Shown: positions 1 to 56,690 of the stretch, piece by piece
How positions within the stretch are numbered: the stretch's first letter is position 1
Layout: each line of letters begins with the position of its first letter
Virus record (IMG/VR): IMGVR_UViG_3300037247_000990
Coordinates: 1 to 64,000 of that record
Strand: one strand, 5' to 3'
From: a virus
Length of the DNA stretch: 64,000 nucleotides
Made by a program: the position numbers and the translations under genes
The notes under the pieces: generated by a model
Database searches by the model: none
The model's input: the letters and a program-made list of their open reading frames with translations, nothing else
What the model was told of the DNA's origin: nothing

Positions 1-722
1 AAGGGCTCCTTCTTCGCCTGCTCCTCGATCTGCGGGCGAGGGGAGGCGTCGGTGATGTCGATCATCCCCCCCTCCATCTCGTCGGCGGTCAAGCCGACGG
101 CCTCCTCGGGGAACGCCGCCCTCAGCGCCTCGGCCTCGGCGCATTTGGCGAGCTGCCCGCGCGCCCGGTTCTGCCATATGGAGTTCGGGATATCGGTCTT
201 CCCAGACTGGCGCTTGTAGGCTTCCAGCCACCACACCTGCCCGGTGAAGGCCATCCGCTCCTTGCTGACCATCCGGTAGACGGTCACCTTGCACCACTCC
301 GGGTACTCGAACTGAATGGTCTGGTTCCCCTGGCCGAAGGTGTGAGCCGCCATCGGCCCGAACTCCGGCGCGTCCTTACCAGCGTGCAGTTGGGTCCGGC
401 TCGCGGTGGCTCGGAGTTCAAAGATCGTACCCCAGATCCTCGGGACCATCCGCTGCCGCTTGCTGTCCCACATCGGGACGATAGCCACAGGGCGCTTCAT
501 GATGTCGAGGTCGCGCGCCTTGCAATAGTCATAGGCCAGCAGGATGGCGTCGTCGATCACGTCCGCGATCATGGGGCTGGGATCGCCGAAGATCACCTCC
601 TTGAGCACTCGGAACTCGTCGTCGCTCAGGTCGCGCTTCGCCAGCTCCACGTTAGTCGAGGCTCGACGCAGCGTCGTGACGTTCGTGCCCCGTTTCTTGT
701 CAGCCTTCCTAGTCTCCGTCAT
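1..722 (-). CDS. bet: Bet/RecT-family ssDNA-annealing recombinase, 3' end cut by window edge
   Basis: The leftward frame from the ATG at 722 stays open to coordinate 1 (240 codons), so the C-terminus is missing. The segment DYCKARDLDIMKRPVAIVP followed by ELRATASRTQLHAGKDAPEF is the signature of phage recombination protein Bet, which anneals complementary single strands during replication and recombination. The start has a good ribosome site (ACGAGGAGACACGAG before ATG). A charged coiled-coil gene lies upstream. No partner exonuclease is visible; it could lie past the edge. Family assignment is confident, exact biochemical role is by homology. Confidence 0.9.
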   Translation of the reverse strand, partial: MTETRKADKKRGTNVTTLRRASTNVELAKRDLSDDEFRVLKEVIFGDPSPMIADVIDDAILLAYDYCKARDLDIMKRPVAIVPMWDSKRQRMVPRIWGTIFELRATASRTQLHAGKDAPEFGPMAAHTFGQGNQTIQFEYPEWCKVTVYRMVSKERMAFTGQVWWLEAYKRQSGKTDIPNSIWQNRARGQLAKCAEAEALRAAFPEEAVGLTADEMEGGMIDITDASPRPQIEEQAKKEP

Positions 723-1064: not shown

Positions 1065-1865
1065 TTAGCGAACAACGCTCTTATGCTCCTGGTAGATTCT
1101 GACGCCCTTGAGTTCCTTGCTGCCGCCCCGTTGCATCTCCTTCTTATCGACGATCCCGCGAATGTACCCCCGGATCGCCTTGTCCAGGCAGGGCGTGTCG
1201 ATGTAGGGGCGCAGCTTCGCCAGCGGTATCTTGGTGCTGTCCTCGATCTCGTGGATCCATCGGCTCCTGAGACTGGCTGACGCGCCGAGGTCAGTCCTTG
1301 AGATACTTCGGTCCGCCGGCCTCGACGCCGCCACCTGGCGGGCGTCGTCCGCTGCCTGTAGGCGCTCATCCACCTCGGCGTGCTCCTCCGGCGTCTCGGC
1401 AGTACTGTCGGCGAGCATGGCCTCCTTCTCGGCTGCCTCGGCCTTGGCCTCCGCCCGCAGCCTCTCCTCCTCGGCGACCCGCCGCTGAAAGCGCGTGATC
1501 CTGTCCGATACGTCCCTCATGGCCTTGTCGACATCATCAATGATCGTCTGGAACCAGCCGTTCACTGCCGCCACCGCCCGAACGTATGGCTGTTTCTCGG
1601 GGCCGTGTAGCCGCAGGTCGTCGGCAGTTCGCCGCACTGACCGCATCTGCTTGACGAAGTCGATGGCCCGCTTCTCGACGTCATGGTCGTCGATGGTCTC
1701 CGGTACCCGCGCCACCGCCTCAAGGAGCTTCGCCGCCCGCTCCTGGAGCTGCTGGTTGTTCTCGGCCACGCTCTGCGCGGCTTCCTCCACCATTAGGTCG
1801 CCTGGGTCGGGCGGCAGGTTGTCTCCGATGCCGCGCTCGGGAGCCGCGTCGGTCTGTTCGGTCAT
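1065..1865 (-). CDS. coiled-coil protein of the recombination module
   Basis: 266 residues, strongly charged. Residues about 20-190 are rich in E, A, R and Q and include an alanine/glutamate helix of coiled-coil type (EERLRAEAKAEAAEKEAM). The C-terminal 70 residues look globular (RSRWIHEIEDSTKIPLAKLR). Long charged proteins of this kind commonly sit beside bet/recT in phages, but no catalytic motif is visible and I do not assign a function. The start overlaps the stop of the preceding leftward gene by four bases (ATGA), so the two are translationally coupled. A 342-bp gap separates it from bet. Confidence 0.8.
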   Translation of the reverse strand: MTEQTDAAPERGIGDNLPPDPGDLMVEEAAQSVAENNQQLQERAAKLLEAVARVPETIDDHDVEKRAIDFVKQMRSVRRTADDLRLHGPEKQPYVRAVAAVNGWFQTIIDDVDKAMRDVSDRITRFQRRVAEEERLRAEAKAEAAEKEAMLADSTAETPEEHAEVDERLQAADDARQVAASRPADRSISRTDLGASASLRSRWIHEIEDSTKIPLAKLRPYIDTPCLDKAIRGYIRGIVDKKEMQRGGSKELKGVRIYQEHKSVVR

Positions 1866-2230
1866 GGTTTTTCTCCTTTAGTTAACAGCATCGCATCGAG
1901 TGCATCATTATATTCCTGCCAAGTCTCCATGCAGGTTGGCCGGTCATCACTCTCAGAGACCTGGCAATTTTCATGGTGCGCGGCCATGAAGGCGCGCATC
2001 CCGTGTTTCCCGTATCGGTCAATATTTTCCTCGGCGGTTTTCAGAAAGCCTTGGACATCGTCTGTCTGGAAAAGAACGCCGCCTCTCGGGTCACACGGAA
2101 CATCCCTATCGGTTTTATAGAGATGGCGGTTATCGTGGGTCCACCAACAAGTCCGTGCGCCGTAAAAGATCATGTCCGCGCCGCTATTCAACACCTGATC
2201 AATCCCCACCTTCTCCACAATCACGGGCAT
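1862..2230 (-). CDS. hypothetical early protein
   Basis: 122 residues from the ATG at 2230, chosen because GGAG lies six bases upstream; a TTG at 2242 is the in-frame alternative. The protein is compact and mixed, with several Trp, Cys and His residues (FYGARTCWWTHDNRHLYKT), but I recognise no family. The gene starts 23 bases downstream, in its own direction, from a perfect parS site, so anything bound there could influence its transcription. It overlaps the next gene by four bases. Confidence 0.7.
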   Translation of the reverse strand: MPVIVEKVGIDQVLNSGADMIFYGARTCWWTHDNRHLYKTDRDVPCDPRGGVLFQTDDVQGFLKTAEENIDRYGKHGMRAFMAAHHENCQVSESDDRPTCMETWQEYNDALDAMLLTKGEKP

Positions 2231-2253
2231 CTTTATCTCCAATTGTTACGAAA

Positions 2254-2269
2254 TGTTTCACGTGAAACA
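2254..2269. promoter_or_regulatory. parS: perfect chromosomal-type parS site
   Basis: TGTTTCACGTGAAACA is identical to the consensus centromere site bound by bacterial ParB proteins, including those of Bacillus and Caulobacter. The palindrome extends one base each side to 18 bp (2253-2270). It lies in the 60-bp gap between two leftward genes. Only one copy was noticed. It may recruit host ParB to the phage genome, act as an operator, or form a hairpin in the transcript. The motif is seen directly; binding is inferred. Confidence 0.8.
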
Positions 2270-2290
2270 TCGGCCTCGATACCCGGCTCA

Positions 2291-2653
2291 TCAGATAAAC
2301 TCATCAGGAGGAAGCTGATATTCCATATCGTCGCGCCTCCATAGGTGAAGGACGAACGGGTGGTTGTTGATGTACTTGTCCTCCCTGGGGTGGAACTGGA
2401 TAACCGTCTCGTCATCACCCCAGAACAGCCCTTTCACAAAGCACATCTCACCCCACGTCGGACAGCGGTTCCTGGCGCTAACCGAGACGTGTTCCCAGTG
2501 TGTCGGATTTGGCCCACTGGAAATGATCTTAAGCATCTCCTCGGCCGGGCCGTTAACCAAGAATACCCCCGCGAGGCCGTCCGACGAGCGGCCGCCGTAG
2601 GGGCCCTCGCGAATCCGGCTCGCTTCGATTAAAGGGTGCGTTATTTTCTTCAA
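2291..2653 (-). CDS. DUF7694-like phage protein
   Basis: 120 residues from a TTG start that overlaps the upstream stop (TTGA). The C-terminal half carries the family pattern: HVSVSARNRCPTWGEMCFVK, then GLFWGDDETVIQFHP, then NNHPFVLHLWRRDD. Function of the family is unknown. Longer readings in this frame upstream of 2653 are the shadow of the neighbouring gene and were trimmed. It belongs to the early leftward operon with bet. Confidence 0.75.
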   Translation of the reverse strand: MKKITHPLIEASRIREGPYGGRSSDGLAGVFLVNGPAEEMLKIISSGPNPTHWEHVSVSARNRCPTWGEMCFVKGLFWGDDETVIQFHPREDKYINNHPFVLHLWRRDDMEYQLPPDEFI

Positions 2654-3006
2654 AACATCGGCTCCATGGCATCCCAGTTGACCTTTGATCGTGGGTTGGC
2701 CTCTGGCTCGCCGGGTGCCTCGGTCCTGGCCCAGTTCTCCAAGCGGAGCATGTGTCTGTACTGGCGCTCGGTGATCGGTCGGTCGGCGCACCACGGCCAC
2801 ACCTCCGACATCTCGACGGCCTCGTGGCCGCGCTGGAAATGCCACACCGCCCCGCGATCCATCGGGTTATCGGGGAAGTCAGGATCGGGGGTCACGCCGT
2901 ACCAGATGTGGACCGGGACCAGCGTCCCGCCCCTCGCCTGCTTTACCGCATAAAAACCCTCGACGGGATTACCGTCACCGAGCACCGCGCGCCCTTTCTT
3001 CTTCAT
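2650..3006 (-). CDS. hypothetical early phage protein
   Basis: 118 residues starting at the ATG that overlaps the upstream stop (ATGA, 3006); an ATG at 3015 is possible. The sequence is rich in Trp, Pro and Arg (HIWYGVTPDPDFPDNPMDRG, then VWPWCADRPITERQYRHML). Short proteins of similar pattern recur in alphaproteobacterial phages, with no known role. Coupled at both ends to its neighbours by four-base overlaps. Confidence 0.7.
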   Translation of the reverse strand: MKKKGRAVLGDGNPVEGFYAVKQARGGTLVPVHIWYGVTPDPDFPDNPMDRGAVWHFQRGHEAVEMSEVWPWCADRPITERQYRHMLRLENWARTEAPGEPEANPRSKVNWDAMEPMF

Positions 3007-3390: not shown

Positions 3391-3591
3391 ATGACGAAGA
3401 CCACCCCTAGGTGTTTATTCTGCGCCGCCGTCCTCACCCCGGACGACATTGTTTCGTATGCGGATTACGGTCTCGACATCTGCGAGGAACACGCGGAGGC
3501 AATCGCCAACTACTATAATAAGGCGAGGTCGGGTGACTGGCTGACGTGGGAGGATCAAGAACCACCGGACAAGATGGAGGCACCCCCATGA
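3391..3591 (+). CDS. small zinc-finger-like protein
   Basis: 66 residues from the ATG at 3391; GTG at 3337 or ATG at 3355 would add 18 or 12 residues and the start is not certain. PRCLFCAAVLTPDD followed by LDICEEHAEA gives a CxxC plus CxxH arrangement that could bind one zinc. First rightward gene after the divergent promoter region, overlapping the replication gene downstream by four bases. Possible small regulator or nucleic-acid-binding accessory protein. Confidence 0.55.
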   Translation: MTKTTPRCLFCAAVLTPDDIVSYADYGLDICEEHAEAIANYYNKARSGDWLTWEDQEPPDKMEAPP

Positions 3592-4313
3592 GCTTCAGAG
3601 CTTCGCGTTGGGCGTGGCGGCAGCAAGCCGGATCGAGCCGCGCCAAGATCGTACTACTCTCACTCGCCGACCACGTAAATGAGAGGGGCTACTGCTGGCC
3701 GAGCCAGCATCGCCTAGCGGTTCTAACCGACCTCGCGACCAAGACCGTCGGCCGCGCCCTCAAGGACCTCGAGGATCGAAAGCTGATCCGCAGGGTCCAA
3801 CGCAGTCATGACGACGGCGGTCGAACCTCGGACGGAATATACGTTGTCGCACCACTCTCTGAACTTCGCTGGACGCGGAGAGAGAAGCGTCAGGACACCC
3901 GGTCACGGAGTCCGGGCCCCCCCCGGTCAAAGAGTCCAGGGGCCCCGGTCAAGGAGTCCGAGGAACCTATCAATGAATCTCATCATATCCAAGAGGATAT
4001 GTCGGCTAGTGCCGACTCGCCGGCTCAAGGTTCTCTTATTCAGTTTGCGGTCCCGATTAAGACTGCCTCTGAAACCTTAACCTCGGAGAAACCGGGCGGC
4101 GGCGTCGGATTCCTAATCCAGCGTGGGATCAAGAGACCGACCGCCTGGGCCATGGTCAACAAGTGGCGGAAGATAATTACGGATGACCAGCTACTGAGGA
4201 TCATGGCGACGGCGGCGCGGAAAAATGTCGGGAATCCTATCGAATACATCACCAAGGCCGTCAGTGGAGAACGACGGCGGACGAGAGGACGGTCACATCA
4301 CTCGGTAGTCTAG
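3588..4313 (+). CDS. winged-helix replication initiator/organizer-like protein
   Basis: 241 residues. The start at 3588 is set by GGAGG seven bases upstream and the ATGA overlap. Residues about 1-90 form a typical phage replication N-terminal winged helix (KIVLLSLADHVNERGYCWPS, then TDLATKTVGRALKDLEDRKL). A basic Pro/Ser-rich linker (about 100-140) precedes a C-terminal helical segment. Proteins of this form recognise the origin or load helicase. It lies directly before the primase-helicase, so a helicase-loader or initiator role is likely; no ATPase motif is present. Confidence 0.75.
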   Translation: MSFRASRWAWRQQAGSSRAKIVLLSLADHVNERGYCWPSQHRLAVLTDLATKTVGRALKDLEDRKLIRRVQRSHDDGGRTSDGIYVVAPLSELRWTRREKRQDTRSRSPGPPRSKSPGAPVKESEEPINESHHIQEDMSASADSPAQGSLIQFAVPIKTASETLTSEKPGGGVGFLIQRGIKRPTAWAMVNKWRKIITDDQLLRIMATAARKNVGNPIEYITKAVSGERRRTRGRSHHSVV

Positions 4314-4329
4314 GCGGGGGCACTGTACG

Positions 4330-6141
4330 ATGACACCCCTGCGTGATCTTCTGAACGAGCAGCTTATCCACCTCGACTCATACCGAGCGGGAAATTACAA
4401 GCGTCTCTGCCCGATCTGCTCTCACACCCGAAAGAAGAAGTCCGATCCTTGCCTGAGCGTCACGATAGAGCCGGGGTCCGAGGCGGCGACCTGGTTCTGC
4501 CATAACTTCGGCTGTGATTTCAAGGGCGGGGTCCGAGAGTCGGATGAACACGGGCACCACCAGTCACAGCGAACTCGACCGTCGGCGCGCCCAACTCTAA
4601 AGAGCGGCGGTCTTGGTAAGAAGGCAATCAGGTTCTTTGCTCGTCGGAAGATCGGCGCGGCCGTCCTAGAGCGAAACGGCGTGACCGAGGCTCGGGTCTA
4701 CATGCCGCAGGTCTCGAAGAAAGTAGACGTGATGGCGTTCCCATACCGGCGCGGCGGCGAGCTGATCAACGTCAAGTACCGGGGGCCCAACAAGATATTC
4801 CGCCAGGAGAAGGGGGCTGAGAAGATCGTCTACGGCTATGACGACGTAGTAGGCCAGGATGAGATCATCATCGTCGAGGGAGAGCTGGACAAGCTGGCGC
4901 TGGAGGAGGCCGGAGTCCTGAACGTCTGCTCCGTTCCCGACGGAGCCCCGGCGGCGGTCGCGGAGAACGTACCCCCCGAGGAAGAAGATCGGAAATACGA
5001 CTTCATCTGGAACTGTCGGGAGCTGTGGGACAAGGCGAGCCGGATCCTGATTGCCACGGACGCCGACGAGCCCGGCGACGCTCTCGCCGAGGAGCTGGCC
5101 CGGCGTCTCGACAAGGCGCGGTGCTGGCGTGTCCGGTGGCCGGCGATCAACGACGACCCGATGAAGGACGCGAACCAGGTCTTGATGGAGTGCGGCCCCC
5201 AGGTCCTTACGGAGTGCGTCGCGAACCCCGTCCCCTACCCTATCATCGGGCTCGGCTCGTTCGGGGAGGTGTGGTCGAGGATCAAGACCTACTATCAACA
5301 CGGCCTGGAGCGCGGCCTCTCGACCGGTTGGTCTACCCTGGACGGCTACTACCACGTGTTACCGGGCGACGTTACAGTCATCACCGGGGCACCGGGGAGC
5401 GGCAAGTCCGAGTGGGTAGACGCGCTGGCGGTCAACCTGGCGGTGGAATACGGATGGGTGATCGCGACCTGCTCGATGGAGAACACCGCCGAGGAACACT
5501 TTGCCAAGATCGCCGAGAAGTTCCTGGGCGTGCCATTCTTCGAGGCCGAGTACGCGTCCGGCACTCCGAGGATGGGTGAGGGGGATCTGGATAAGGCTCT
5601 GGCCTGGGCTGATAAGCACTTTGTCCGGATCGACTGTGAGGGAGACCAGTTACCCACCTACGAGTGGATTCTCGACGTAGCTCGCAGCGCCGTGATGAGG
5701 CATGGTATCCGGGGGCTGGTGATCGACCCGTACACGGAACTGGACCACCAGCGCCCAGAGGGGATGCCGGAGACCGAGTACGTCTCGACGATGCTGTCGA
5801 AGGTCAGACACTTCGCGCGGACGAACGGAGTCCACGTGTGGTTCATCGCGCACCCCCGCCAGCTCAGGGACTGGAACGGCGCGGCTCCCGGACTGTACGA
5901 CATTTCCGGCTCTGCCCACTGGGCCAACAAGCCCGATGTCGGAATCGTCATCAGCCGGAACCGCGACCCTGCGGTAGGCGCTCTTGACGAGGTCGAGATC
6001 ATCCTGAGAAAGGTCAGGCGCAAGATCGTCGGCCAGATCGGCAGCGTCACGCTTCGCTACGACCGCGTGACCGGGCGGTACTTCGACTTGACGCCCGTAA
6101 AACCCGAGCCGGTGCAGGAGGCCTTTGGATATACACCATGA
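4330..6141 (+). CDS. bifunctional DNA primase-helicase (T7 gp4-like)
   Basis: 603 residues. N-terminal zinc-binding primase domain with C27, C30, C57 and C62 (CPIC ... FCHNFGC). TOPRIM core with DEIIIVEGELDKLAL and ILIATDADEPGD (about 175-250). A RecA-like DnaB-type helicase follows, with Walker A GAPGSGKS at 353-360, a Walker B-like LVIDPYTEL, and WFIAHPRQL. It makes primers and unwinds DNA at the phage fork. Length and order match fused gp4-type enzymes. The start follows the initiator-like gene by 16 bases; the stop overlaps the methyltransferase start (ATGA). Confidence 0.93.
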   Translation: MTPLRDLLNEQLIHLDSYRAGNYKRLCPICSHTRKKKSDPCLSVTIEPGSEAATWFCHNFGCDFKGGVRESDEHGHHQSQRTRPSARPTLKSGGLGKKAIRFFARRKIGAAVLERNGVTEARVYMPQVSKKVDVMAFPYRRGGELINVKYRGPNKIFRQEKGAEKIVYGYDDVVGQDEIIIVEGELDKLALEEAGVLNVCSVPDGAPAAVAENVPPEEEDRKYDFIWNCRELWDKASRILIATDADEPGDALAEELARRLDKARCWRVRWPAINDDPMKDANQVLMECGPQVLTECVANPVPYPIIGLGSFGEVWSRIKTYYQHGLERGLSTGWSTLDGYYHVLPGDVTVITGAPGSGKSEWVDALAVNLAVEYGWVIATCSMENTAEEHFAKIAEKFLGVPFFEAEYASGTPRMGEGDLDKALAWADKHFVRIDCEGDQLPTYEWILDVARSAVMRHGIRGLVIDPYTELDHQRPEGMPETEYVSTMLSKVRHFARTNGVHVWFIAHPRQLRDWNGAAPGLYDISGSAHWANKPDVGIVISRNRDPAVGALDEVEIILRKVRRKIVGQIGSVTLRYDRVTGRYFDLTPVKPEPVQEAFGYTP

Positions 6142-7844
6142 TTAGGATATTGACTGGCGACGTGCGCGAGAAACTGGCCGAGCTGGCGGACGAATCGGTG
6201 CATTGCGTGGTGACGAGCCCGCCATATTGGAGCCTTCGGGATTATGGTGTCGCGGGGCAGATAGGCTTGGAACCGACGCCCGACGAATATATCGCCACCA
6301 TGGTCGGCGTGTTCCGCGAGGTTCGCCGGGTGCTGCGGGCAGACGGGACGCTTTGGCTGAACATGGGAGATTCTTACGCCACTAGGGGTGGGGCTGTCGG
6401 GCGGTCCCCCGGTGGCGGCGAACAAGGGGAGCGCTTTCTAAGACAAGGGCACATAAACACGCAGCCTAATCGAATGCCACTAAAGGGGTTCAAACCCAAA
6501 GATTTGATCTTGATGCCCGCCCGCATTGCTCTCGCCCTTCAATCCGACGGCTGGTGGCTGCGCTCCGAGATCGTCTGGGCCAAGCCCAACCCGATGCCTG
6601 AAAGCGTGACGGATCGACCGACCTCGGCGCATGAGAAGGTATTTCTACTCTCAAAATCCGCACGCTATTTCTATGATTCTGAGGCGGTACGAGAGAAGAC
6701 GTCAGGCGATTGGCGTGGTTCGGAATTTGATACTGGGAAAACGGGCGTTCACCAACTCGACCGCAGCCAGTCAGCCGCAAGTCGTAAGTCTAAAGGGGGC
6801 CGCTATCGTGGCAATGCCGAAGAAAACACACAAGCCGTGCAGCCGATGCGGGGTGATCCTGCCCAGGGAAGCCTTTTACCCGAGAAAGGACGGATCACGA
6901 GAACATGTTTGCAGGCCGTGCGCCAAAGCGCGGGTGATGGACTGGCGGGCGACGAAAGCGGGACGAGAAAAATATCTGGCGGCAAATCGTTCAGAAGCGG
7001 AGGTGGCGAGGACCAAGCGATATTTTGCAACACCGAAGGGCAAGGCGGCAATCAGACGGAAACGGGCAGTTCGCCGAGCCCGGGAACGAAAGATCATCTC
7101 GACGCTGACAGTGGAGGAATGGCAGGAAATACAGGAACGCCACCAAATGAGGTGTGCGTATTGTCAGGACGACGGCTTACCGTTGACGCAGGATCATGTA
7201 ATCCCGATCAGCAAGGGGGGGCACCACACGATGATGAACATTGTTCCAGCGTGCAAACCTTGCAACAGCCGGAAGAAGGACAAGTTGCTGGCCGCAATTT
7301 AAGGAACGTCTGGAACATCGCCACCCAGCCCTACCCGGATGCCCATTTCGCCACATTCCCAACGGCGCTGGTTGAGCCCTGCATCAAGGCGGGGACCAGC
7401 GAGAAGGGATGTTGCCCGGAGTGCGGCGCGCCGTGGGTGCGGGAAGTGGAGAAAGAGCGAACCTTTGAAAGCGGCTCTGGGCGGGCTGGCAATATGCCAA
7501 ACGGCAAGAACGGGCCGAACTTGCAGGGCGGTGGTGAGACATTGGACATTAGACGCGGCCCTGTCGTGCATAGCATCACAACCGGCTGGTCACCGTCATG
7601 CGAATGCCTGATCTTTGAAGACGAAAACGAAGCAGCCGAATGGGGGGCAAACGAAAATGGACCACAGAATCCATTGCCCTGCACCGTCCTTGACCCCTTC
7701 GCCGGCTCCGGCACCACCGGATTGGTCGCCGACCGGCTGGGGCGGCATGCTATTCTGATCGAGCTGAATCCAAAATATTCTACGCTCGCAGAAAAGCGGA
7801 TTGCGCAGGATGGTGGGATGCTGACAGAAATTATCATGCAATGA
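6138..7844 (+). CDS. beta-class DNA methyltransferase with a nested HNH gene
   Basis: 568 residues. Motif IV (VVTSPPYWSLRDYG) is near the N-terminus and the SAM-binding motif I (VLDPFAGSGTTGLVAD) near the C-terminus, the order of beta-class N4-cytosine/N6-adenine methylases. Conserved flanking segments FYDSEAVREK and NVWNIATQPYPDAHFATFP are normally separated by a short variable region. Here about 165 codons of low-complexity sequence intervene, and that stretch encodes an HNH endonuclease in another frame. The methylase frame nevertheless stays open, so a full enzyme with a bulky insert is expected. A zinc-ribbon-like CCPECGAPW follows. Probably protects phage DNA from host restriction. Confidence 0.88.
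   Translation: MIRILTGDVREKLAELADESVHCVVTSPPYWSLRDYGVAGQIGLEPTPDEYIATMVGVFREVRRVLRADGTLWLNMGDSYATRGGAVGRSPGGGEQGERFLRQGHINTQPNRMPLKGFKPKDLILMPARIALALQSDGWWLRSEIVWAKPNPMPESVTDRPTSAHEKVFLLSKSARYFYDSEAVREKTSGDWRGSEFDTGKTGVHQLDRSQSAASRKSKGGRYRGNAEENTQAVQPMRGDPAQGSLLPEKGRITRTCLQAVRQSAGDGLAGDESGTRKISGGKSFRSGGGEDQAIFCNTEGQGGNQTETGSSPSPGTKDHLDADSGGMAGNTGTPPNEVCVLSGRRLTVDAGSCNPDQQGGAPHDDEHCSSVQTLQQPEEGQVAGRNLRNVWNIATQPYPDAHFATFPTALVEPCIKAGTSEKGCCPECGAPWVREVEKERTFESGSGRAGNMPNGKNGPNLQGGGETLDIRRGPVVHSITTGWSPSCECLIFEDENEAAEWGANENGPQNPLPCTVLDPFAGSGTTGLVADRLGRHAILIELNPKYSTLAEKRIAQDGGMLTEIIMQ
6808..7302 (+). CDS. HNH homing-type endonuclease nested in the methyltransferase gene
   Basis: 164 residues, frame +1 relative to the methylase. 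GTG at 6808 is chosen for the AGGGGG nine bases upstream; ATG at 6814 is the alternative. N-terminal zinc ribbon (PCSRCGVILPREAFYP ... CRPCAKAR), basic linker, then an HNH core with MRCAYCQDDGLPLTQDHVIP, SKGG and PACKPCNSRKKDKL. These are nicking or cutting enzymes usually carried by mobile introns or free-standing homing genes. The stop lies exactly at the conserved methylase segment RNLRNVW, so the whole gene behaves as an in-frame insertion. Confidence 0.85.
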   Translation: MAMPKKTHKPCSRCGVILPREAFYPRKDGSREHVCRPCAKARVMDWRATKAGREKYLAANRSEAEVARTKRYFATPKGKAAIRRKRAVRRARERKIISTLTVEEWQEIQERHQMRCAYCQDDGLPLTQDHVIPISKGGHHTMMNIVPACKPCNSRKKDKLLAAI

Positions 7845-7899: not shown

Positions 7900-7998
7900 T
7901 AGATCGCGTCTCCGACCTGATCTTCGCAGAGCAGGTTAGCGTGTCTGGTGGGGCCGTCGAGCTTGTCATGGGGGTCGGCGGCCCCTACCATGTGCGCC

Positions 7999-9324
7999 AT
8001 GGCACGGGCGCGGAAGACAACAGGTGCGAAGCTGAAGGTCGAATACTGGTCGGTGGACCGGGTCGAACCGTATCACCTCAACCCGCGCAAGCGCACCAAA
8101 CGGGCCATCAAAATCGTGGCCGACTCCATTCGTGAGTTCGGTTTCAAGCAGCCAATCGTCGTTGACAAGAAGGGGGTCATCATCGCGGGCCATGGACGCC
8201 ACCTGGCAGCCCAGCAACTTGGTCTCGCCCAGGTGCCAGTGGTCGTTGCCAAGGACTTAACTGCGGCGAAGATCAAAGCCTACCGCATTGCGGACAACCG
8301 AACTGCCGAGGAATCGGGCTGGGACATGCAACTGCTTCCATTGCAGCTCGGCGATCTCGATAAGTTGGGGTTCGATCTGTCGCTGACCGGGTTCACGATG
8401 GCGGAGCTCGGGGGTATGAATTTACATGGAGGCGACGAAGGGGCCGACGAAGCCCCGCCGCTGCCGAAAAAGCCGGTCTCGAGGCCGGGTGATCTCTGGA
8501 CGCTCGGCGACCACCGGCTGCTGTGTGGCGATGCTGGGGACGAGGGGGATGTGAGACGGGTGATGGGCGGGATCTATCCTCATTTGATCGTGACCTCGCC
8601 GCCATACAACCAACGGATCAATAAATTCAAGCCATCTGGGATGCACAAGGAAGGCGGGTGGGTAGCGAAGGTGGCATCGCTTGCCTATAGCGACGACATG
8701 CCGGAGAGCGAATATCAGGCGCGACAGACGGCGCTGCTAAGGTCTTGGCATGACCTCCTCAGAAACGGCGGTTCGGTATTTTACAATCACAAGAACCGAT
8801 ATCGCGACAAGGCAGTGATCAGCCCACTCCAGTGGCTACCTGGACCATTTTCATTGAGGCAAGAGATCATTTGGCGGCGACCGGGATCGGTCACGCAAAA
8901 CGCCCGGATGTTCTTACCGTCCGACGAACGCATTTATTGGCTCTACAAGGGTACAAATTTCACGTTCAACGACGAGACCGAAATCAAGTCGTGGTCAACC
9001 GTTTGGGACATCGCCCCTGGTGGCGACAAACGCCATGCTGTCGCATTTCCGGTCGAGTTGCCGATACGGTGCATCCGGGCGTCATCACATGAAAATGACC
9101 ACGTCTACGACCCATTCCTTGGCTCCGGCACCACCCTGATCGCCGCCGAGATGGAGGGGCGGGTGTGCCACGGTCTGGAGATCGAGCCAGCGTTCGTTGA
9201 TGTGGCTGTTAAAAGATATGTCAATTTTGTCGGTGGTGCTGGTAAAGTCCGTCTAACGACGGACGGCGGGCGGCCTGTCTCTTATGAAAAAGTGTTTAAA
9301 ATGCGGGAGGGAAAAGCAGCTTAA
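7999..9324 (+). CDS. ParB-nuclease-domain/DNA methyltransferase fusion
   Basis: 441 residues from the ATG at 7999; ATGs at 7990 or 7948 are alternatives. Residues about 10-115 are a ParB N-terminal-type domain (DSIREFGFKQPIVVDKKGV, then AGHGRHLAAQQLG, then KAYRIADNRTAE). The rest is a methylase with motif IV LIVTSPPYNQRI and motif I YDPFLGSGTTLIAAEMEG. Such fusions are common phage adenine or cytosine methylases; the ParB-like part probably aids DNA handling. It does not look like a full segregation ParB, so no direct link to the parS site is claimed. Confidence 0.9.
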   Translation: MARARKTTGAKLKVEYWSVDRVEPYHLNPRKRTKRAIKIVADSIREFGFKQPIVVDKKGVIIAGHGRHLAAQQLGLAQVPVVVAKDLTAAKIKAYRIADNRTAEESGWDMQLLPLQLGDLDKLGFDLSLTGFTMAELGGMNLHGGDEGADEAPPLPKKPVSRPGDLWTLGDHRLLCGDAGDEGDVRRVMGGIYPHLIVTSPPYNQRINKFKPSGMHKEGGWVAKVASLAYSDDMPESEYQARQTALLRSWHDLLRNGGSVFYNHKNRYRDKAVISPLQWLPGPFSLRQEIIWRRPGSVTQNARMFLPSDERIYWLYKGTNFTFNDETEIKSWSTVWDIAPGGDKRHAVAFPVELPIRCIRASSHENDHVYDPFLGSGTTLIAAEMEGRVCHGLEIEPAFVDVAVKRYVNFVGGAGKVRLTTDGGRPVSYEKVFKMREGKAA

Positions 9325-34354: not shown

Positions 34355-35314
34355 ATGAATTCGATCACGTCCCGCATCGACGCCATCACCGATATACCCG
34401 CCGACTACCGCGTAACAGCGCCGCCCTGTCCGAGATCGGTCAAGATCGAGTTGACCGGGCGGTGTAATTTCGCCTGTGCCTTCTGCGCCCGCTCTAAAAA
34501 GCTGCGCGATCAGGCCGACATGGACATGGGGCTATTTCAGCGCCTGCTGCGGGAAATGCGCGAGTGCGGTGTCGAGGAAATTGGCCTGTTTTATCTCGGC
34601 GAATCGTTTCTGCTGCCGTGGTTGGCCGAGGCGGTGTATTTCGCCAAGCGTGAGTGCGGCTTCCCCTATATCTTCCTGACTACCAACGGCTCGGTGGCCG
34701 ATCCGGTGAAGCTCGCCGCCGTCATCGGCAATGGCCTAGATTCGCTGAAATTCTCGCTCAACTATGCCGACGAGGAGCAGTTCAAGGACATTGCCGGAGT
34801 CAAGCCGGCGCTGTTCCACGACATGATCGCCAACATTAAGAGCGCCAAGGGAGTACGCGACCGGATCTTGCGCGACCGAGGCCACCGCTGCGGCCTTTAT
34901 GCTTCCTACATCCAGTATGACGGCAACCAGGGTGAGCGTATGAAGGTCGCGGTTGCCGAAGTCGAGCCCTATGTCGACGAGGTCTATGCCCTGCCGCTCT
35001 ACAACCAGGCGGATTTAGTCTCTAAGGACGAGGAAGAGCGAGGCTGGGCCCCTACTGCTGGCAACCGGGGCCGGGTCGGCGCGTTGAGGGATCCGATCCC
35101 CTGCTGGGCGGTTTTCACCGAGGGCCACATCACCTTCGACGGTAAGCTGTCGGCATGCTGTTTCGACCATCGGGGCGACTTCAACATGGGCGACCTGACG
35201 AAGCTATCCTTCATGGAGGCTTGGCATTCCAGCGCATTCGTAGATTTGCGCACGGCCCATCTTACTGGTGACGTCAGCGGGACACCTTGCGCCGCTTGCG
35301 TGGCCTACGCCTGA
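34355..35314 (+). CDS. radical SAM protein with SPASM-type C-terminus
   Basis: 319 residues. ELTGRCNFACAFCARSKKLR holds the CxxxCxxC motif for the radical SAM iron-sulfur cluster. The barrel continues with GVEEIGLFYLGESFLLPWLA, FLTTNGS and LDSLKFSLNYAD. The C-terminus has clustered Cys (PCWAVFTEG, LSACCFDHRG, PCAACVAYA) as in SPASM/Twitch domains that hold auxiliary clusters. Such enzymes modify peptides, cofactors or sugars. It is inserted between stopper and tail-completion genes. The target is unknown; a virion protein or the sugar cluster downstream are candidates. Confidence 0.88.
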   Translation: MNSITSRIDAITDIPADYRVTAPPCPRSVKIELTGRCNFACAFCARSKKLRDQADMDMGLFQRLLREMRECGVEEIGLFYLGESFLLPWLAEAVYFAKRECGFPYIFLTTNGSVADPVKLAAVIGNGLDSLKFSLNYADEEQFKDIAGVKPALFHDMIANIKSAKGVRDRILRDRGHRCGLYASYIQYDGNQGERMKVAVAEVEPYVDEVYALPLYNQADLVSKDEEERGWAPTAGNRGRVGALRDPIPCWAVFTEGHITFDGKLSACCFDHRGDFNMGDLTKLSFMEAWHSSAFVDLRTAHLTGDVSGTPCAACVAYA

Positions 35315-35751
35315 TGGTACAAGAGATTACCTTCAAGGTCCTCGGTACCGCCAAGGTCTCCAAGATGCTGGAGAATGCAGGACGACGTGGAAGAAGCGCG
35401 CTGCTCGGCACGCTGTTCGAGGAGGGCGAGGAGTTGATGCGAATATCCAAGGATCAATTCGTCCCCGTAGACACCCGGAACCTTAGCAAGTCTGGCTTCG
35501 TCCGGAAGATGAAGACGGGTCTCGGCGTGGAGGTAGGATTTGGCGGGACGGCCGCGCGATATGCGCTCAGAATCCATGAGAACCCCCGGTCCGGCAAGAC
35601 CGGCGGTGTCAGCCCGTCAGGGAAGAAGTACAAGACCTGGGCCAAGGTCGGCCAGTGGAAATATCTGATCACGCCGTTTAAGATGCGAAAGAGCGGGCTC
35701 ACCAAGAGGGTGGCGCGGAGATTCGCCCAACGGATGCGAAGGGGCAGGTAG
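35314..35751 (+). CDS. tail-completion protein, HK97 gp10-like
   Basis: 145 residues, basic, from the ATG overlapping the radical SAM stop (TGATG). FKVLGTAKVSKMLENAGRRG, ISKDQFVPVDTRNLSKSGFV and ARYALRIHENPRSGKTGG are typical of the HK97-gp10 family, which joins neck and tail. Its presence right after the radical SAM gene shows that the latter interrupts the connector block. Confidence 0.8.
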   Translation: MVQEITFKVLGTAKVSKMLENAGRRGRSALLGTLFEEGEELMRISKDQFVPVDTRNLSKSGFVRKMKTGLGVEVGFGGTAARYALRIHENPRSGKTGGVSPSGKKYKTWAKVGQWKYLITPFKMRKSGLTKRVARRFAQRMRRGR

Positions 35752-36147
35752 ATGGTCGTCGTAGTCGCGCTCGATGAGATCGGCACCAAGCTCACCGACG
35801 ACGGGATCGTGGAAGGTGCAACCGGTTGGCGGCTGGCGAAGGGCACGACCATGGAGGAGCAGGACCAAGTGGTCACCATCATCGAGGCTCCTGGTGAGAT
35901 ACCGGATCAGGATGCCAGCGGTGAGCCCGAGCATAATTTCCCGGCCTTCCAGGTCCGGATTCGAGGAGCGCGATTTGGGTATCAAGTAGCTCGCGTCAAG
36001 GCTCAGGAGGTCTTTAACTCGCTCAACAACGCCGACCTTTCCGGCTTCGGCTATATCTTCGCCGACAACGCGCCGTTCTTTCTCCAGTACGACAAAAACA
36101 GCCGCCCGGAGCTGGTGGTCAACTTCTCGTCGATGCAAGAGCGGTGA
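35752..36147 (+). CDS. tail terminator-like protein
   Basis: 131 residues: FPAFQVRIRGARFGYQVARV, KAQEVFNSLNNADLSGFGYI, then FADNAPFFLQYDKNSRPELV. This is the alpha/beta pattern of tail terminator or minor capsid proteins of siphoviruses (gpU/DUF3168-like role), which cap the tail tube. It should be followed by the tail tube gene; here a 9-kb cluster of other genes lies between. Confidence 0.75.
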   Translation: MVVVVALDEIGTKLTDDGIVEGATGWRLAKGTTMEEQDQVVTIIEAPGEIPDQDASGEPEHNFPAFQVRIRGARFGYQVARVKAQEVFNSLNNADLSGFGYIFADNAPFFLQYDKNSRPELVVNFSSMQER

Positions 36148-36300
36148 CCGTCCACGAAGGAGGTGGTGCCACATCGACCCGAAGCGGTTTATAATGCGAG
36201 CGTCCGGCTGAGATTCACGAGTAAGTCGGGGCGGGATACTGTGAAATTGAAACCTCCGTGTGTTCTGTCCCGGCTCCTCGCTCAGCCGGGCACTATCAAA

Positions 36301-36993
36301 ATGGACCCAGATGGACCCAGATGGTTCGGGCGTACCATCGAGGAACTTCGTCGCTGGGGGCTGCCGAAGGCATGGGCCGGGCAGACGTGCTACCTTGTAG
36401 GCGGCGGGCCTTCCCTACGGGGTTTCGACTTCGGCCAGCTCCGCGGCCTCCACACCATCGCCATCAACCGGGCTTTCCTCGACTGTCCAGACGCCGAGGT
36501 GGTCTGCTTCTCGGACGGGCGCTTCTGGCGCTGGTGGGGTCCGGACGGAACCGAGGGTCAGTCTCTTCCGGCTCACCCCGGGCTCAAGATCACCGTCCAG
36601 TCTGATCGCAAGGTATCTCACCCCACGGTCCTGAACATGCCCGGTACGGGACGGCGCGGGCTCGAAACCCGGAGGAACCGGCTCAAGCACGGCAACTCGA
36701 CCGGGTGCGCGGCGATGAACGTCGCGTGGCACCTGGGAGCGAGGAAGATCATCCTCCTGGGCTACGACGGGAAGCCCGCCGAGAACGGCGGTGACAACTA
36801 CCACGGCGGACACCCGGTCGGCTACGCTAAGGCCAACCCCAGGTTCACGGCCTACGACAAGATGGCCCCGTATTACGAGCCGATCGGTCTTGAGCTCGCG
36901 GCCCGAGGCGTGGAGGTCATCAACGCCAGCCCCAACTCGGCGATAATGTGCTTCCCAAGAGTTACCCTGTCGTCTATATTCCCACCCGGATGA
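36301..36993 (+). CDS. DUF115/glycosyltransferase-like protein
   Basis: 230 residues from ATG 36301; GTGs at 36241 and 36163 are in-frame alternatives, start uncertain. A Rossmann-like opening (CYLVGGGPSLRGFDFGQLRG, then LHTIAINRAFLDCPDAEVVC) and GCAAMNVAWHLGARKIILLG, YDGKPA resemble the DUF115 / sialyltransferase-like family found in phages and polysaccharide loci. First member of the sugar-type cluster. Donor and acceptor unknown. Confidence 0.6.
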   Translation: MDPDGPRWFGRTIEELRRWGLPKAWAGQTCYLVGGGPSLRGFDFGQLRGLHTIAINRAFLDCPDAEVVCFSDGRFWRWWGPDGTEGQSLPAHPGLKITVQSDRKVSHPTVLNMPGTGRRGLETRRNRLKHGNSTGCAAMNVAWHLGARKIILLGYDGKPAENGGDNYHGGHPVGYAKANPRFTAYDKMAPYYEPIGLELAARGVEVINASPNSAIMCFPRVTLSSIFPPG

Positions 36994-37360
36994 AGGGATC
37001 ACCTCCTTTCCGTCTGTGCTCAGGTGAAAACCGATACCGTCGGCGAGGTAGCCACCCCGACCGGCACCGAGGCCCCGGAGGAGTCATACTCCGAGGTCTC
37101 TCTTGACCTCCTCATCAGATATAGTTACCGTCCGCTCGCCGGGACAATTTCCTCCCGTCTCCGGCACAGGAACTTGGCGGGCCGCCGCCTGCAGTCTCCC
37201 TGGGGTCGCGGTCCGCCCACTTTAGCCGGGGCGTATTCTGGTAGACCTGAAAATCTCGTCGTACCTTCCATATTACGGGGCCTGACGTGCCATTCTCCGG
37301 CCTCTGGGTGGGCTACCCCCCGCCGGGTGAGCGGGCGTCCCACGTCGCTCTGAGAGCGTT
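36994..37360. other. 367-bp gap in the sugar-gene cluster with structured sequence
   Basis: No gene is convincing. A 15-base match to the 3' tail of bacterial 16S rRNA (GGATCACCTCCTTTC, 36996-37010) follows the upstream stop. Two adjacent hairpins come next: GGAGT-CAT-ACTCC (37080-37092) and GAGGTC-TCTCTT-GACCTC (37093-37110). A 25-codon frame (GTG 37287, stop 37364) overlaps the next ATG, as genuine genes do here, and reads PFSGLWVGYPPPGERASHVA; it may be the remnant of a lost gene. A 109-codon frame at 37024 lacks coding character. Confidence 0.45.
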
Positions 37361-38203
37361 ATGACCGGCAAGACGGGATTCGTCGTCGTCAGGAAGCGGC
37401 CGGAATATCCCTTTCAGGAGATCATGGACGGCATCGCAGCCTGCGGTGACCACGCGATCAAGGGCTACGCCAGCCAGACGGGCGACGCGAATACTGCCGT
37501 CGTGACCTGGCACCCCTACGGCAGACAGGGAGCGGCGGCCCACTGCCATCATCGGCTCGGGGGCCGGCACATCGTCGTCGAGAACGGATACGTGAGAAAA
37601 GATGCCCTCGGCGAGGCTCAGTACTGCGTCGAGTTCGACGGCTTCAACGGTCAGGGATGGATACCCAAGCACGGGCACGATTCGTGGAAATGGCATCGGC
37701 TCGGAGCCGAGCTGAGGCCGTGGCGTCAACGCGGTGACCACATCCTCGTCTGCGGCCAGCGCGGCGGCGACTATTCAGATTATTCAATGCCGATGGACTG
37801 GCCCGACTCGATCCTCGACCGCCTCCCCCACCTAACCGACCGCCCCATCAAGTACCGCCCCCACCCTGGTCGCCCGTGGAGACCGACCCTTCGCAAGGGC
37901 GTCGAGATCACCGATCCGCGCCGCCCCATCCATGCTGACCTCGAAGGGGCTCACGCCTGCGTCGTGTGGTGCTCTAATGCAGCGACCGAGGCCATAATCT
38001 CCGGCATCCCGGTGTTCTATCAGGGGCCGAATCTCAAGCTCGCGAGTATCGCCTGCGACGACTTAACCTTGATCGAGGACCCGCCGATGGAGCATCGCGG
38101 CAGGGCCCTCACTGAGCTGTCCTGGTCTCAGTGGTCGCTGTCGGATCTGAAGCGCGGCGAGCCCTGGCGATTCCTGATGTATTCAGCCGAGGGCCGGGCA
38201 TGA
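37361..38203 (+). CDS. glycan-transfer type protein, paralog 1 of 3
   Basis: 280 residues. Two Rossmann-like halves: VVTWHPYGRQGAAAHCHHRL and IKYRPHPGRPW, then ACVVWCSNAATEAIISGIPV (like the donor site of capsule or GT-B enzymes) and C-terminal LSWSQWSLSDLKRGEPWRF. The last motif, the YRPxP motif and the SNAA motif recur in the genes at 38391 and 40526, so the three are diverged duplicates. Likely capsule/glycan glycosyltransferase-like; no reaction assigned. Confidence 0.6.
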   Translation: MTGKTGFVVVRKRPEYPFQEIMDGIAACGDHAIKGYASQTGDANTAVVTWHPYGRQGAAAHCHHRLGGRHIVVENGYVRKDALGEAQYCVEFDGFNGQGWIPKHGHDSWKWHRLGAELRPWRQRGDHILVCGQRGGDYSDYSMPMDWPDSILDRLPHLTDRPIKYRPHPGRPWRPTLRKGVEITDPRRPIHADLEGAHACVVWCSNAATEAIISGIPVFYQGPNLKLASIACDDLTLIEDPPMEHRGRALTELSWSQWSLSDLKRGEPWRFLMYSAEGRA

Positions 38204-38394
38204 ATAATTCGGATCGCGAGCTGATAGACAAGTACGTCGCCAAGCACGGCGTCACCAAGTGTCCCGACCTGGAGGCTGGGTCCGAACGTGAGCAGCTGGA
38301 ACGACAGGACAAGCAGATTGCGAGGACCATGTCGAGGGCCGGCCGCAAGGGTTGGATCAAGCGCGCATCTCAGGGAAGGATAGGCCGGATGTGA
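38200..38394 (+). CDS. small basic hypothetical protein
   Basis: 64 residues from the ATG that overlaps the upstream stop. SDRELIDKYVAKHGVTKCPD, then basic helical RAGRKGWIKRASQGR: looks like a short DNA-binding or adaptor protein. The same opening style (xLIxxYIxKxGVTxCP) is frequent in small phage proteins. Coupled at both ends. Confidence 0.55.
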   Translation: MNNSDRELIDKYVAKHGVTKCPDLEAGSEREQLERQDKQIARTMSRAGRKGWIKRASQGRIGRM

Positions 38395-39248
38395 GGGCGG
38401 TAATCTACCACGACATTAACAACACCAGGTCCAAGATCATCTGCTCCGCGATGATGCAGGGTATCCTCGAATGCGGTGACGACGCGGTATCGATCCGCTT
38501 CCAGAAGTGGCAGGGGGAGACGCCCGGACACGTCGCGCTGATGTACGGTGCCGGTGGTCGGCGCAAGGCGATCATGCAAGCCTATCAGGACGCCGGCAAA
38601 CACTCGGTCCTGATCGACCTCGGCTATTGGAAGCGCAAGGAGGGCAGGGGTCACATGCGCTGGCGCGGGTACCACAAGGTCGTCGTCGATGGCTTCCATC
38701 CAAATAACCAGCTCGCCGTCGAGGACGGCGACTCCTCGCGGTTCCAGCAACTCGGTATTAACGTCCACCCGTGGAGAGACGGCAGCGCCGTCCTCGTGGC
38801 CGGGATGTCGGCCAAGAGTGCCGTCACCCACGATCTGCCACCTGAAGCCTGGGAACGCGAGGCGATCCGAATCTTATCGAAGGCAACCAGCCGCGAGATC
38901 ATCTACCGGCCCAAACCATCGTGGAGCGAGGCGCGGCCGCTCCCCGGCGCGACCTACTCAGCGGGGCACTATTCTGTCGAGACCGTCCTGGCACAATGTC
39001 ATGCCGTCGTCACCCACCACTCCAACGTAGCCGTCGACGGGATCGTCTGGGGTCTCAACATCTACACCAACGCCGGGGCCGCCAAGGGGATGTCGGCGCA
39101 GACGATAGGGGACGTGCTCAAGAAGGTTCGGTGTCAGACTAAAACGCGAGAGAAGCTGCTGTCACACCTCGCTTGGTGCCAGTGGAACGTGGACGAGATG
39201 GCGCGCGGCGAGCCCTGGCGACACCTGAAGCGATTGGGGTTGATATGA
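38391..39248 (+). CDS. glycan-transfer type protein, paralog 2 of 3
   Basis: 285 residues from GTG in a GTGA overlap. YHDINNTRSKIICSAMMQGI, EIIYRPKPSWSEARPLPGA, CHAVVTHHSNVAVDGIVWGL and LAWCQWNVDEMARGEPWRHL align by order and spacing with the genes at 37361 and 40526. A GT-B-like two-domain fold is plausible. It is embedded in a chain of coupled genes, so it should be co-expressed with the rest of the cluster. Confidence 0.6.
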   Translation: MRAVIYHDINNTRSKIICSAMMQGILECGDDAVSIRFQKWQGETPGHVALMYGAGGRRKAIMQAYQDAGKHSVLIDLGYWKRKEGRGHMRWRGYHKVVVDGFHPNNQLAVEDGDSSRFQQLGINVHPWRDGSAVLVAGMSAKSAVTHDLPPEAWEREAIRILSKATSREIIYRPKPSWSEARPLPGATYSAGHYSVETVLAQCHAVVTHHSNVAVDGIVWGLNIYTNAGAAKGMSAQTIGDVLKKVRCQTKTREKLLSHLAWCQWNVDEMARGEPWRHLKRLGLI

Positions 39249-39478
39249 AGGTGGTCGGCAAGGGGACGAAGAAGGAAGCGAACGTGGCCCGCCGGCTGCT
39301 CTATGCTCTCATTTCAATGAGACCGGTTTTTAGAGGACCGAAGCCCGCGCGCTCGATCATCTCGTTACCCAACATGGCGGGCACCACCGACAGCAGCCAG
39401 CGCATGGTCGACTTCACCGAGGCCCGACGCCTCGGCGTCGCCGCTGGTGACGTTGACAGATATAGGAGAAAGAGATGA
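39245..39478 (+). CDS. small basic hypothetical protein
   Basis: 77 residues, very basic (KGTKKEANVARRLLYALISM), with no recognised family. Start set by the ATGA overlap. May be a nucleic-acid-binding or adaptor protein; nothing links it to sugar chemistry other than position. Confidence 0.5.
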   Translation: MKVVGKGTKKEANVARRLLYALISMRPVFRGPKPARSIISLPNMAGTTDSSQRMVDFTEARRLGVAAGDVDRYRRKR

Positions 39479-39771
39479 GACGTAAAGGCACTGGAAAATC
39501 CACCGCACATATTCGCGCTCGCCAGAAGTATACGCTCAGCGACTTAGAAAGCCTCCTGGCTCTTGCCGGTAACAACGTGGTTGAAATCCTCCCCGATGGC
39601 GAAGTGAAGGTCCTCGACACCGACCCTGCCGTCGCCGAGGCGTTCAATGCTGGTCTCGAACGCGCGGCACGGTGGCACATGGGGAAGACTCGGGGGGGGC
39701 ACTTATCAGAGCGAGGCGTCAGGTTGCACAAGGCATTTGCCGCCTCCATCCGCGAGCTCAAGCGAAAATGA
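39475..39771 (+). CDS. hypothetical protein
   Basis: 98 residues, basic N-terminus (RRKGTGKSTAHIRARQKYTL) and helical remainder (VAEAFNAGLERAARWHMGKT). No family recognised. AGGAG six bases before the ATG and overlapping junctions at both ends argue that it is translated. Confidence 0.55.
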   Translation: MRRKGTGKSTAHIRARQKYTLSDLESLLALAGNNVVEILPDGEVKVLDTDPAVAEAFNAGLERAARWHMGKTRGGHLSERGVRLHKAFAASIRELKRK

Positions 39772-40529
39772 AGATCGCGTCCGTCGATCTGGAAAACTCG
39801 GTCTTCTCGCAGAACGGCGAGGACGGGATCATCGACTACCTCGTCGGCTGTGTCGACAGCGCGGCCTACGTTAAGAACAGCGAGCGCCGGTTCGTCGAGA
39901 TCGGCTGTGGCAACGGCCGCGAGAACTGCACCACCGCGCTTGCCGTAGAGGGCTGGCATGGCGTCGTGTTAGATCGCAAGCCGGCGCGGATCGACACGTA
40001 CAAATACATCGCCAAGGAGCGGGGGTTCCACCACCGGGTCAAAGCCTATGCCGTGGCGGCGACGCCGAATGCAGCGGCCGATCTGATCGAACTATTTGAG
40101 ACCGCTTGCCCGTGCTTCTTCTCGCTCGATATCGACGGACCGGACTGGCACGTCATGAAGGCGCTGCTCGAGGCTGGATTCCGCCCCAGCGTCTGTTGCC
40201 TCGAATACAACGCCGCTTTCGAGAACCGGCCGATCGTCGTTCGCCTTGAGGAAGCGCCGAAGAGGACCGATAACCTTTATTACGGCGCTGGTATCAAGGC
40301 TTGGCGCTATCTAATGGCGGGATATGGTTATGAATTCGTCACCGTTGAATCAGCCGGCGTCAATGCCTTCTTCGTCCGCCGCGAAGATATGGAGATGCAG
40401 GAGATCGACAAGATCGAAGGCATCGATTGGGTCGATTGCGCCGTGTTCGCCGAGAAATATGGCCCCGCGCAGCAACGCTACAACGCTGTCATCGGCAAGC
40501 ACAACTTTGTCCATGTGGCCAAGCCATGA
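39768..40529 (+). CDS. FkbM-like SAM-dependent methyltransferase
   Basis: 253 residues. NSVFSQNGEDGIIDYLVG at the N-terminus, the SAM-binding strand FVEIGCGNGRENCTTALA, and CFFSLDIDGPDWHVMKALLE match the SQxGEDG/FkbM-like methylase group common in polysaccharide and cell-surface clusters, where they O-methylate sugars. Its place between glycosyltransferase-like genes supports sugar methylation. The exact target is unknown. Confidence 0.75.
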   Translation: MKIASVDLENSVFSQNGEDGIIDYLVGCVDSAAYVKNSERRFVEIGCGNGRENCTTALAVEGWHGVVLDRKPARIDTYKYIAKERGFHHRVKAYAVAATPNAAADLIELFETACPCFFSLDIDGPDWHVMKALLEAGFRPSVCCLEYNAAFENRPIVVRLEEAPKRTDNLYYGAGIKAWRYLMAGYGYEFVTVESAGVNAFFVRREDMEMQEIDKIEGIDWVDCAVFAEKYGPAQQRYNAVIGKHNFVHVAKP

Positions 40530-41446
40530 AGATCGTCTTCTATCATTCGCTAAGGTTGACCACGGGCGAGGACGGCCACGAGGCCGTCGATATGACTAAC
40601 AGGGAACTTCGCATCGGCGAGGCACTTACCGAAGGGCTCCCGGTTCACGGCGACGAGCTGATCATGGTACCCAAGTCCGAGTGGCAGGGCCCGATGCAAG
40701 GAACGGACGCGGCGATGATGTTCGGCGTCAAGTCGCTGAAGATGTTCGCCCCCCACCTCGCCGCCGGCATTCCGGCGATTTACATCGATAAGGGCTATCT
40801 CGGCTCCAAGGGAGCCGAATCGAGAGCACATTTCTTCAAGTTCTCGGTCAACGCCATACACCCACTGTCATATTTCCAGACCGACCCACGGCCGCTTGAT
40901 CGCCTCAAGAGGCTCAAGATTAAGCCGAATAAATGGCGAGGCGGCGGCGACCATCTCAAGATTCTGGTGGCACTATCGAGCCAAAAATATTGCACATGGC
41001 ATGGACAGGGAGACGCCACCAAATACGCCGCCAAACTCATCAAGGCAATCCATAAGGAGACCGGCGGCAAACGAATCATCGTCTACCGGCCGAAACCATC
41101 ATGGAAATCGGCAGTCTCCATCAAGGATTATGAATTTTCGCGGCCACCGGGCCGCATCCGTGACGTGCTGAAACAGGCCCATGTCCTCGTGACTCACGGC
41201 TCGAACGCTGCTATCGACGCCATCCTGGAGGGTGTCCCGGTGGTCGTCCTGGGGGCCGGGATCGCCCGGCCTATCGCCGGCCACACGATCAAGCATATCG
41301 CGAACCCATATTTCCCCTCTCATGACGAGGTCATCCAATGGCTGCGCGATATCGCTTATTGCCAATGGAGCATGGCCGAGCTTCGATCCGGCCTGGCGTG
41401 GGAGTACATCCGAAAGGACATCTGGAGGGAACTACGATGCCGTTGA
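40526..41446 (+). CDS. glycan-transfer type protein, paralog 3 of 3
   Basis: 306 residues. FYHSLRLTTGEDGHEAVDMT, KRIIVYRPKPSWKSAVSIKD, AHVLVTHGSNAAIDAILEGV and IAYCQWSMAELRSGLAWEYI match the paralogs at 37361 and 38391. SNAAIDAILEGVPVVVLG resembles the sugar-nucleotide-binding helix of capsule-type glycosyltransferases. Shares the YRPKPSW motif exactly with paralog 2. Confidence 0.6.
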   Translation: MKIVFYHSLRLTTGEDGHEAVDMTNRELRIGEALTEGLPVHGDELIMVPKSEWQGPMQGTDAAMMFGVKSLKMFAPHLAAGIPAIYIDKGYLGSKGAESRAHFFKFSVNAIHPLSYFQTDPRPLDRLKRLKIKPNKWRGGGDHLKILVALSSQKYCTWHGQGDATKYAAKLIKAIHKETGGKRIIVYRPKPSWKSAVSIKDYEFSRPPGRIRDVLKQAHVLVTHGSNAAIDAILEGVPVVVLGAGIARPIAGHTIKHIANPYFPSHDEVIQWLRDIAYCQWSMAELRSGLAWEYIRKDIWRELRCR

Positions 41447-41709
41447 AGAGAGACGTTAAGAGGTTCTGGAAGCTGTTCCGGGCGACCCCTCTGAGAACCC
41501 TGTTCCTCGTCCTGAGCTATCGGCAACCGGAGCCATGGGAGCGCCGGTGGCATACGACGCGCCTGCGCATCCCCTTGGTGATCGAAGGCCGGAAAGTCTG
41601 CAACCGCAACGTCCAGATGAGGTGTGTGTACCTCGGGTCGTGGTGGCTGGGCGACGACGCCTGGGCGCTGCGCCTGGGACCGAACCGCCCCGTGACGTTG
41701 ATCCGATGA
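41437..41709 (+). CDS. hypothetical protein
   Basis: 90 residues from the ATG at 41437, overlapping the previous gene by 10 bases. Basic, with an amphipathic N-terminus (RDVKRFWKLFRATPLRTLFL) and a beta-rich C-terminus. May be membrane-peripheral. No family recognised. Confidence 0.5.
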   Translation: MPLKRDVKRFWKLFRATPLRTLFLVLSYRQPEPWERRWHTTRLRIPLVIEGRKVCNRNVQMRCVYLGSWWLGDDAWALRLGPNRPVTLIR

Positions 41710-56688: not shown

Positions 56689-56690
56689 CC

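Follow-up and report, generated by a model that had tools for sequence, protein, structure and literature searches.

The DNA analysed here, called the window throughout, is a stretch of 64,000 nucleotides that makes up positions 1 to 64,000 of the IMG/VR virus record IMGVR_UViG_3300037247_000990. The entire record is 67,729 bases long, and its direct terminal repeat of 127 bp (window 1-127, identical to record 67603-67729) suggests that the phage genome, of about 67.6 kb, is complete. It encodes the genes of a tailed phage, among them TerL, a Mu/P23-45-like portal, a major head protein, a tail tape measure, and J-like tail fibre proteins. Among the tail genes (window 34355-43566) lie radical-SAM-like, sialyltransferase/MptE-like, and short-chain dehydrogenase genes, perhaps with a role in sugar modification. 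Behind the tail genes (window 56394-59061) comes an unusual set, perhaps for lysis or entry, made up of a marginal match to the Hedgehog N-signal domain (at the cut-off), a thermolysin-type M4 peptidase, and a patatin-like phospholipase.

The locus of interest is a gap of 60 bp (2231-2290) between two minus-strand genes of the open reading frame list. Downstream of the gap lies the gene of a 122-amino-acid protein (1862-2230, minus strand) that matched no family in our searches and whose ATG at 2230 is preceded, within the gap, by a GGAG stretch resembling a ribosome-binding site. This gene is followed in the leftward group by one for an exonuclease-like protein (a weak PHROG match) and then by RecT. 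Upstream of the gap lies a reading frame with a DUF7694 domain (2291-2845, minus strand); its true start is likely to be close to 2659, at the end of the preceding gene. A point of divergent transcription lies about 1 kb right of the gap. Beyond it come two plus-strand genes identified by family search, an O-like replication-initiation protein of the HTH_36 family (3588-4313) and a primase-helicase (4330-6141), and the cumulative GC skew reaches its minimum at about the same point. Given this divergence and the skew minimum, the gap lies near the presumed replication region. Farther along, at 6138-7844, is an N6_N4 methyltransferase in which about 320 inserted residues, with no family match, separate the conserved halves.

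Within the gap, at 2254-2269, lies TGTTTCACGTGAAACA, which agrees with the canonical 16-bp parS consensus at every base and is enclosed in a perfect 18-bp palindrome, ATGTTTCACGTGAAACAT, at 2253-2270 (a sequence match, assigned to neither strand). In most bacteria, parS is the DNA site through which chromosomes reach the daughter cells. The preliminary description had named this palindrome as a parS site that chance would rarely produce, and on both points it was right: the base composition of this 60% G+C genome predicts 4.9e-6 copies of the exact 16-mer, the entire record holds one, and in a scan of the 64-kb window it was the sole match at up to three mismatches, a level at which matches by chance are not rare. 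The same description placed the site 23 bases from the start of the neighbouring gene; the actual distance, to the ATG at 2230 on the minus strand, is 22 bases. Perfect palindromes of at least 18 bp were present in 54 of 200 shuffled genomes, so the length of the palindrome is by itself unremarkable and we dropped it as evidence; the significance of the site comes instead from its exact match to a motif named beforehand. A terminator or other RNA hairpin was also considered and rejected, as the stem is AT-rich and has no proper T-tract, and a terminator scan calls nothing there. A consensus scan of the site found nothing promoter-like or terminator-like.

Family models for ParA (PF13614) and for the ParB DNA-binding domain, HTH_ParB (PF17762), gave no match anywhere in the record; the same models gave matches in 14 of 14 and in 9 of 14 control genomes, respectively. 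The earlier statement, made from the sequence, that no parA or full parB is visible is thus upheld as far as these two models reach, and with HTH_ParB absent from the record we dropped the idea that a ParB of the phage's own reads the site. The sole ParB-like protein of the record is a fusion of ParB_N with an N6_N4 methyltransferase (7948-9324, plus strand), found by family search, which has no ParB DNA-binding domain. The phage had also been called lytic-type, and here the evidence is divided. Neither a tyrosine integrase nor a serine resolvase was found in the record by family models, which agrees with that label, but a small protein of the Cro/CI-type HTH_3 family is encoded at record 66813-66974, beyond the window. 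This protein may be the phage repressor, in which case an extrachromosomal lysogeny may also be within the reach of this phage.

Relatives of the phage were sought with its primase, DUF7694 protein, TerL, and exonuclease-like protein, and by alignment against bacterial genomes. The nearest TerL is identical and belongs to a 6.6-kb contig (L163) that stops short of the site and has no match within it; the next-nearest are 52-55% identical. None of 45 related records (TerL at most 55% or primase-helicase about 37% identical) has parS within two mismatches, and loci with a related TerL from bacterial genomes have no site either, only one match at three mismatches. Absence in such distant kin shows just that the site is not ancient there. 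Contigs of metagenome-assembled genomes with a TerL of up to 68% identity came from scattered phyla and the record has no tRNA genes, so we make no host call.

Across IMG/VR, the exact parS occurs in at least 197 contigs (at least 120 with the exact 16-mer and at least 77 others from an 18-mer scan), compared with 11 for a composition-matched shuffled palindrome in a complete control scan, so the chance share of such sites is at most about 6%. By shared proteins, the first 120 contigs listed fall into 63 groups, of which 52 are singletons and 11 are clusters, one of them with 42 contigs. A Terminase_6C terminase is found on the same contig in 22 of 50 parS records, and many of the contigs are therefore true phages; HTH_ParB was found in none of the 49 parS-bearing records tested with the model described above. 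Among the matches listed, 57 of 146 sites lie outside any reading frame of at least 60 amino acids (10.6 expected), and 48 of 146 extend the palindrome to A..T, as in the window phage (10.1 expected). Orphan parS sites are far commoner in phages than chance allows, in the statistical sense of an enrichment that includes many related phages. In two of the contigs (L017 and L044) a terminase gene is accompanied by five parS, all within about 1.5 kb on its upstream side or reaching into its start.

The same pattern holds among cultured phages. Queried with 30 bases around the site, INPHARED returned 203 records with the exact core, compared with 0 and 4 for two control palindromes placed in the same frame. 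A scan of the whole records of 21 isolates, from about 20 genera, found one to seven sites each at up to two mismatches, and none for the reversed pattern. Isolates that bear parS include Bacillus phage phi29, Listeria phage A511, Lactobacillus phage Dionysus, phages of Gordonia, Arthrobacter, Microbacterium, and Rhodococcus, Roseobacter phage DSS3P8, Pseudomonas phage phiPsa397, Butyrivibrio phage Arian, and the microviruses SpV4 and phi-CA82. ParB_N gave a match of any kind in 2 of the 21 isolates and a match over the cut-off in one. No enterobacterial phage was present among 60 INPHARED records sampled at regular intervals along the ranked list. To our knowledge, E. coli and its kin are without chromosomal ParABS, and the absence of their phages would fit ParB as the reader of parS. 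Inovirus bajarodino virus 3 (L209) has six exact parS in 6.2 kb, mostly intergenic (704-755, 3041, 3583, 4380, and 5921), and in phiPsa397 (L215) a parS variant at 1503-1518 lies inside the terminal repeat, which gives two copies per genome.

A pelagiphage-like lineage unrelated to the window phage (L007, L019, L027, L029, L042, and L239-L317) shows the motif being kept in place. Several of its IMG/VR contigs, which are related to the Pelagibacter phages HTVC027P and HTVC023P (TerL identity 54-62%) and have TerL proteins 65-88% identical to one another, carry parS on the upstream side of the TerL start codon at a distance of 54-143 bp. In this lineage the flanks mostly have an identity of 16-48%, which is background, although TerL is 65-97% identical. 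Because these contigs had been picked for parS, the lineage was resampled by TerL protein alone. In this sample, which shares some contigs with the first and whose query alignment was built from parS-bearing contigs, 36 close relatives extend far enough upstream, and 13 of them have parS at up to one mismatch within 200 bp on that side, as do 2 of 38 more distant ones; three control patterns gave none. Two variants of the lineage, TGTTCCACGTGGAACA and TGTTCCACGTGAAACA, keep the central CACGTG and agree with the known degeneracy of parS. The one-mismatch site of HTVC027P lies elsewhere, at record position 16412; three further relatives lack the site. In this pelagiphage-like lineage some branches retain parS while others have gained or lost it, so its absence from the distant relatives of the window phage is unsurprising. 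The position upstream of TerL is perhaps linked to the start of packaging.

Four known systems help to place the site. The chromosomal parS of the ParABS/Spo0J type has the same 16-bp sequence and the same palindromy, but the candidate site described here is borne by a phage, is single, and has no parA or parB DNA-binding domain detected in the same record. The site bound by Noc, the nucleoid occlusion factor of Bacillus, is likewise a 16-bp palindrome read by a ParB-family CTPase, but its core differs from that of parS, which the window site matches exactly. The extrachromosomal prophages of P1 and of the RedRock type in cluster A also carry a partition site on the phage genome; unlike the window phage, in which neither parA nor a parB with a DNA-binding domain was found, they code for a ParA and a ParB of their own and rely on different site sequences, in RedRock repeats of an 8-bp motif (PMC7157519). 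The nearest likeness is to phi29, a virulent phage whose genome has four sites with one mismatch, TGTTTCACGTGGAACA. The host segregation protein Spo0J is reported to trap the phi29 genome in the spore, in a passage of PMC9437464 that cites Meijer et al. 2005. Both phages combine a host-type parS with the lack of a DNA-binding ParB of their own; the window phage differs in being an unrelated siphovirus-type phage of 68 kb, with one exact site and no known link to sporulation.

We consider it probable that the palindrome is a functional orphan parS at which host ParB-CTP is loaded, so that the phage genome is positioned, segregated, or silenced. What is observed is an exact and unique site, no detectable ParA or ParB DNA-binding domain of the phage, a strong enrichment of orphan parS across phages, and positional maintenance in one unrelated lineage; the loading of ParB, its spreading, and its benefit to the window phage we infer. 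The preliminary description had seen a canonical parS in a phage that lacks a ParABS system, a point that the searches support and to which the enrichment of orphan parS in phages is now added. It had offered four outcomes, namely that the site recruits host ParB, tethers the phage genome, titrates ParB from the chromosome, or regulates the neighbouring gene; any of these may apply, and its interpretation is thus supported in part. The single copy and the 45 related records without a site at up to two mismatches speak against function.

The site could instead be an operator, that is, a palindrome bound by a phage or host regulator of the gene starting 22 bp away, with its likeness to parS coincidental or with ParB acting merely as a repressor. 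The short gap directly upstream of a start codon would suit an operator, and the phage encodes two proteins of fitting type, the Cro/CI-type HTH_3 protein and the HTH_36 initiator. However, the genome has one copy only, about 3 kb from the HTH_3 gene (across the terminal repeat), the site is without a promoter-like consensus, and many unrelated phages, whose hosts are likewise unrelated and whose downstream genes differ, carry exactly this 16-mer. This recurrence disfavours a phage-specific operator in particular, and we regard the operator as an unlikely reading. We find it similarly doubtful that the 16-mer arose at random or was left behind passively from host DNA, with no function. Some exact parS matches in IMG/VR must be chance, since a control palindrome reaches 11 contigs, and both the related records without the site and the ordinariness of an 18-bp palindrome would agree with such an origin. 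The expectation for this genome is nevertheless minute, the chance share among the parS contigs is small, and the intergenic position and the A..T extension match those of other phage sites.

A decoy, by which the site would titrate ParB or divert SMC from the host origin and so disturb the host chromosome, seems to us quite improbable. On a replicating genome, one exact site of high affinity would be expected to compete with the few parS of the host, but many clamps are already loaded at the host parS, a single site on each genome would matter at high copy number only, and the phage bears no sign of such a strategy. Least credible of all is that the ParB_N-methyltransferase fusion reads the site: it does have a ParB_N domain, but no HTH-like family matches its residues 111 to 212, HTH_ParB is found nowhere in the record, and phages commonly carry ParB_N-N6_N4 fusions (PMC12704722).

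If the palindrome is indeed an orphan parS read by the host, its action would follow from what is known of ParB, which on binding parS closes into a CTP clamp that slides on the DNA (PMC12704722). At infection, the CTP-dependent clamp of the host would load at 2254-2269 and slide over the adjoining early and replication region, so that a partition complex would form on the phage genome. Host ParA, and SMC as well, could then act on this complex, with the phage genome as their client. The most likely benefit would be that the genome is positioned and inherited while infection is slow, dormant, or in a carrier state, the kind of use reported for phi29 with Spo0J. The spreading of ParB might also locally dampen the flanking early genes, likely as a side effect or as a second benefit.

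The enrichment of orphan parS across lineages is a more interesting result than the single site, whose known precedent is phi29; the literature searched yielded no paper that describes orphan parS in phages. The stray sites suggest that phages borrow the partition protein of their hosts. Carried further, orphan parS would be a widespread and repeatedly gained phage strategy, in which host ParB-CTP serves, in slow or dormant infection, as a free centromere or silencer for unrelated double-stranded and single-stranded DNA phages of many hosts that have exact parS but no parAB, with quick gain and loss of the site. We see the case for this general claim, of which phi29 and the window phage would be instances, as evenly poised. 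A borrowed ParB may explain why a 16-bp host motif is kept while its surroundings change. If the claim is true, many phages supposed to be purely lytic could be partitioned alongside the host chromosome, with consequences for pseudolysogeny, for persistence in slow-growing cells, and for survival in dormant ones, and parS would be a simple sequence marker for such phage behaviour.
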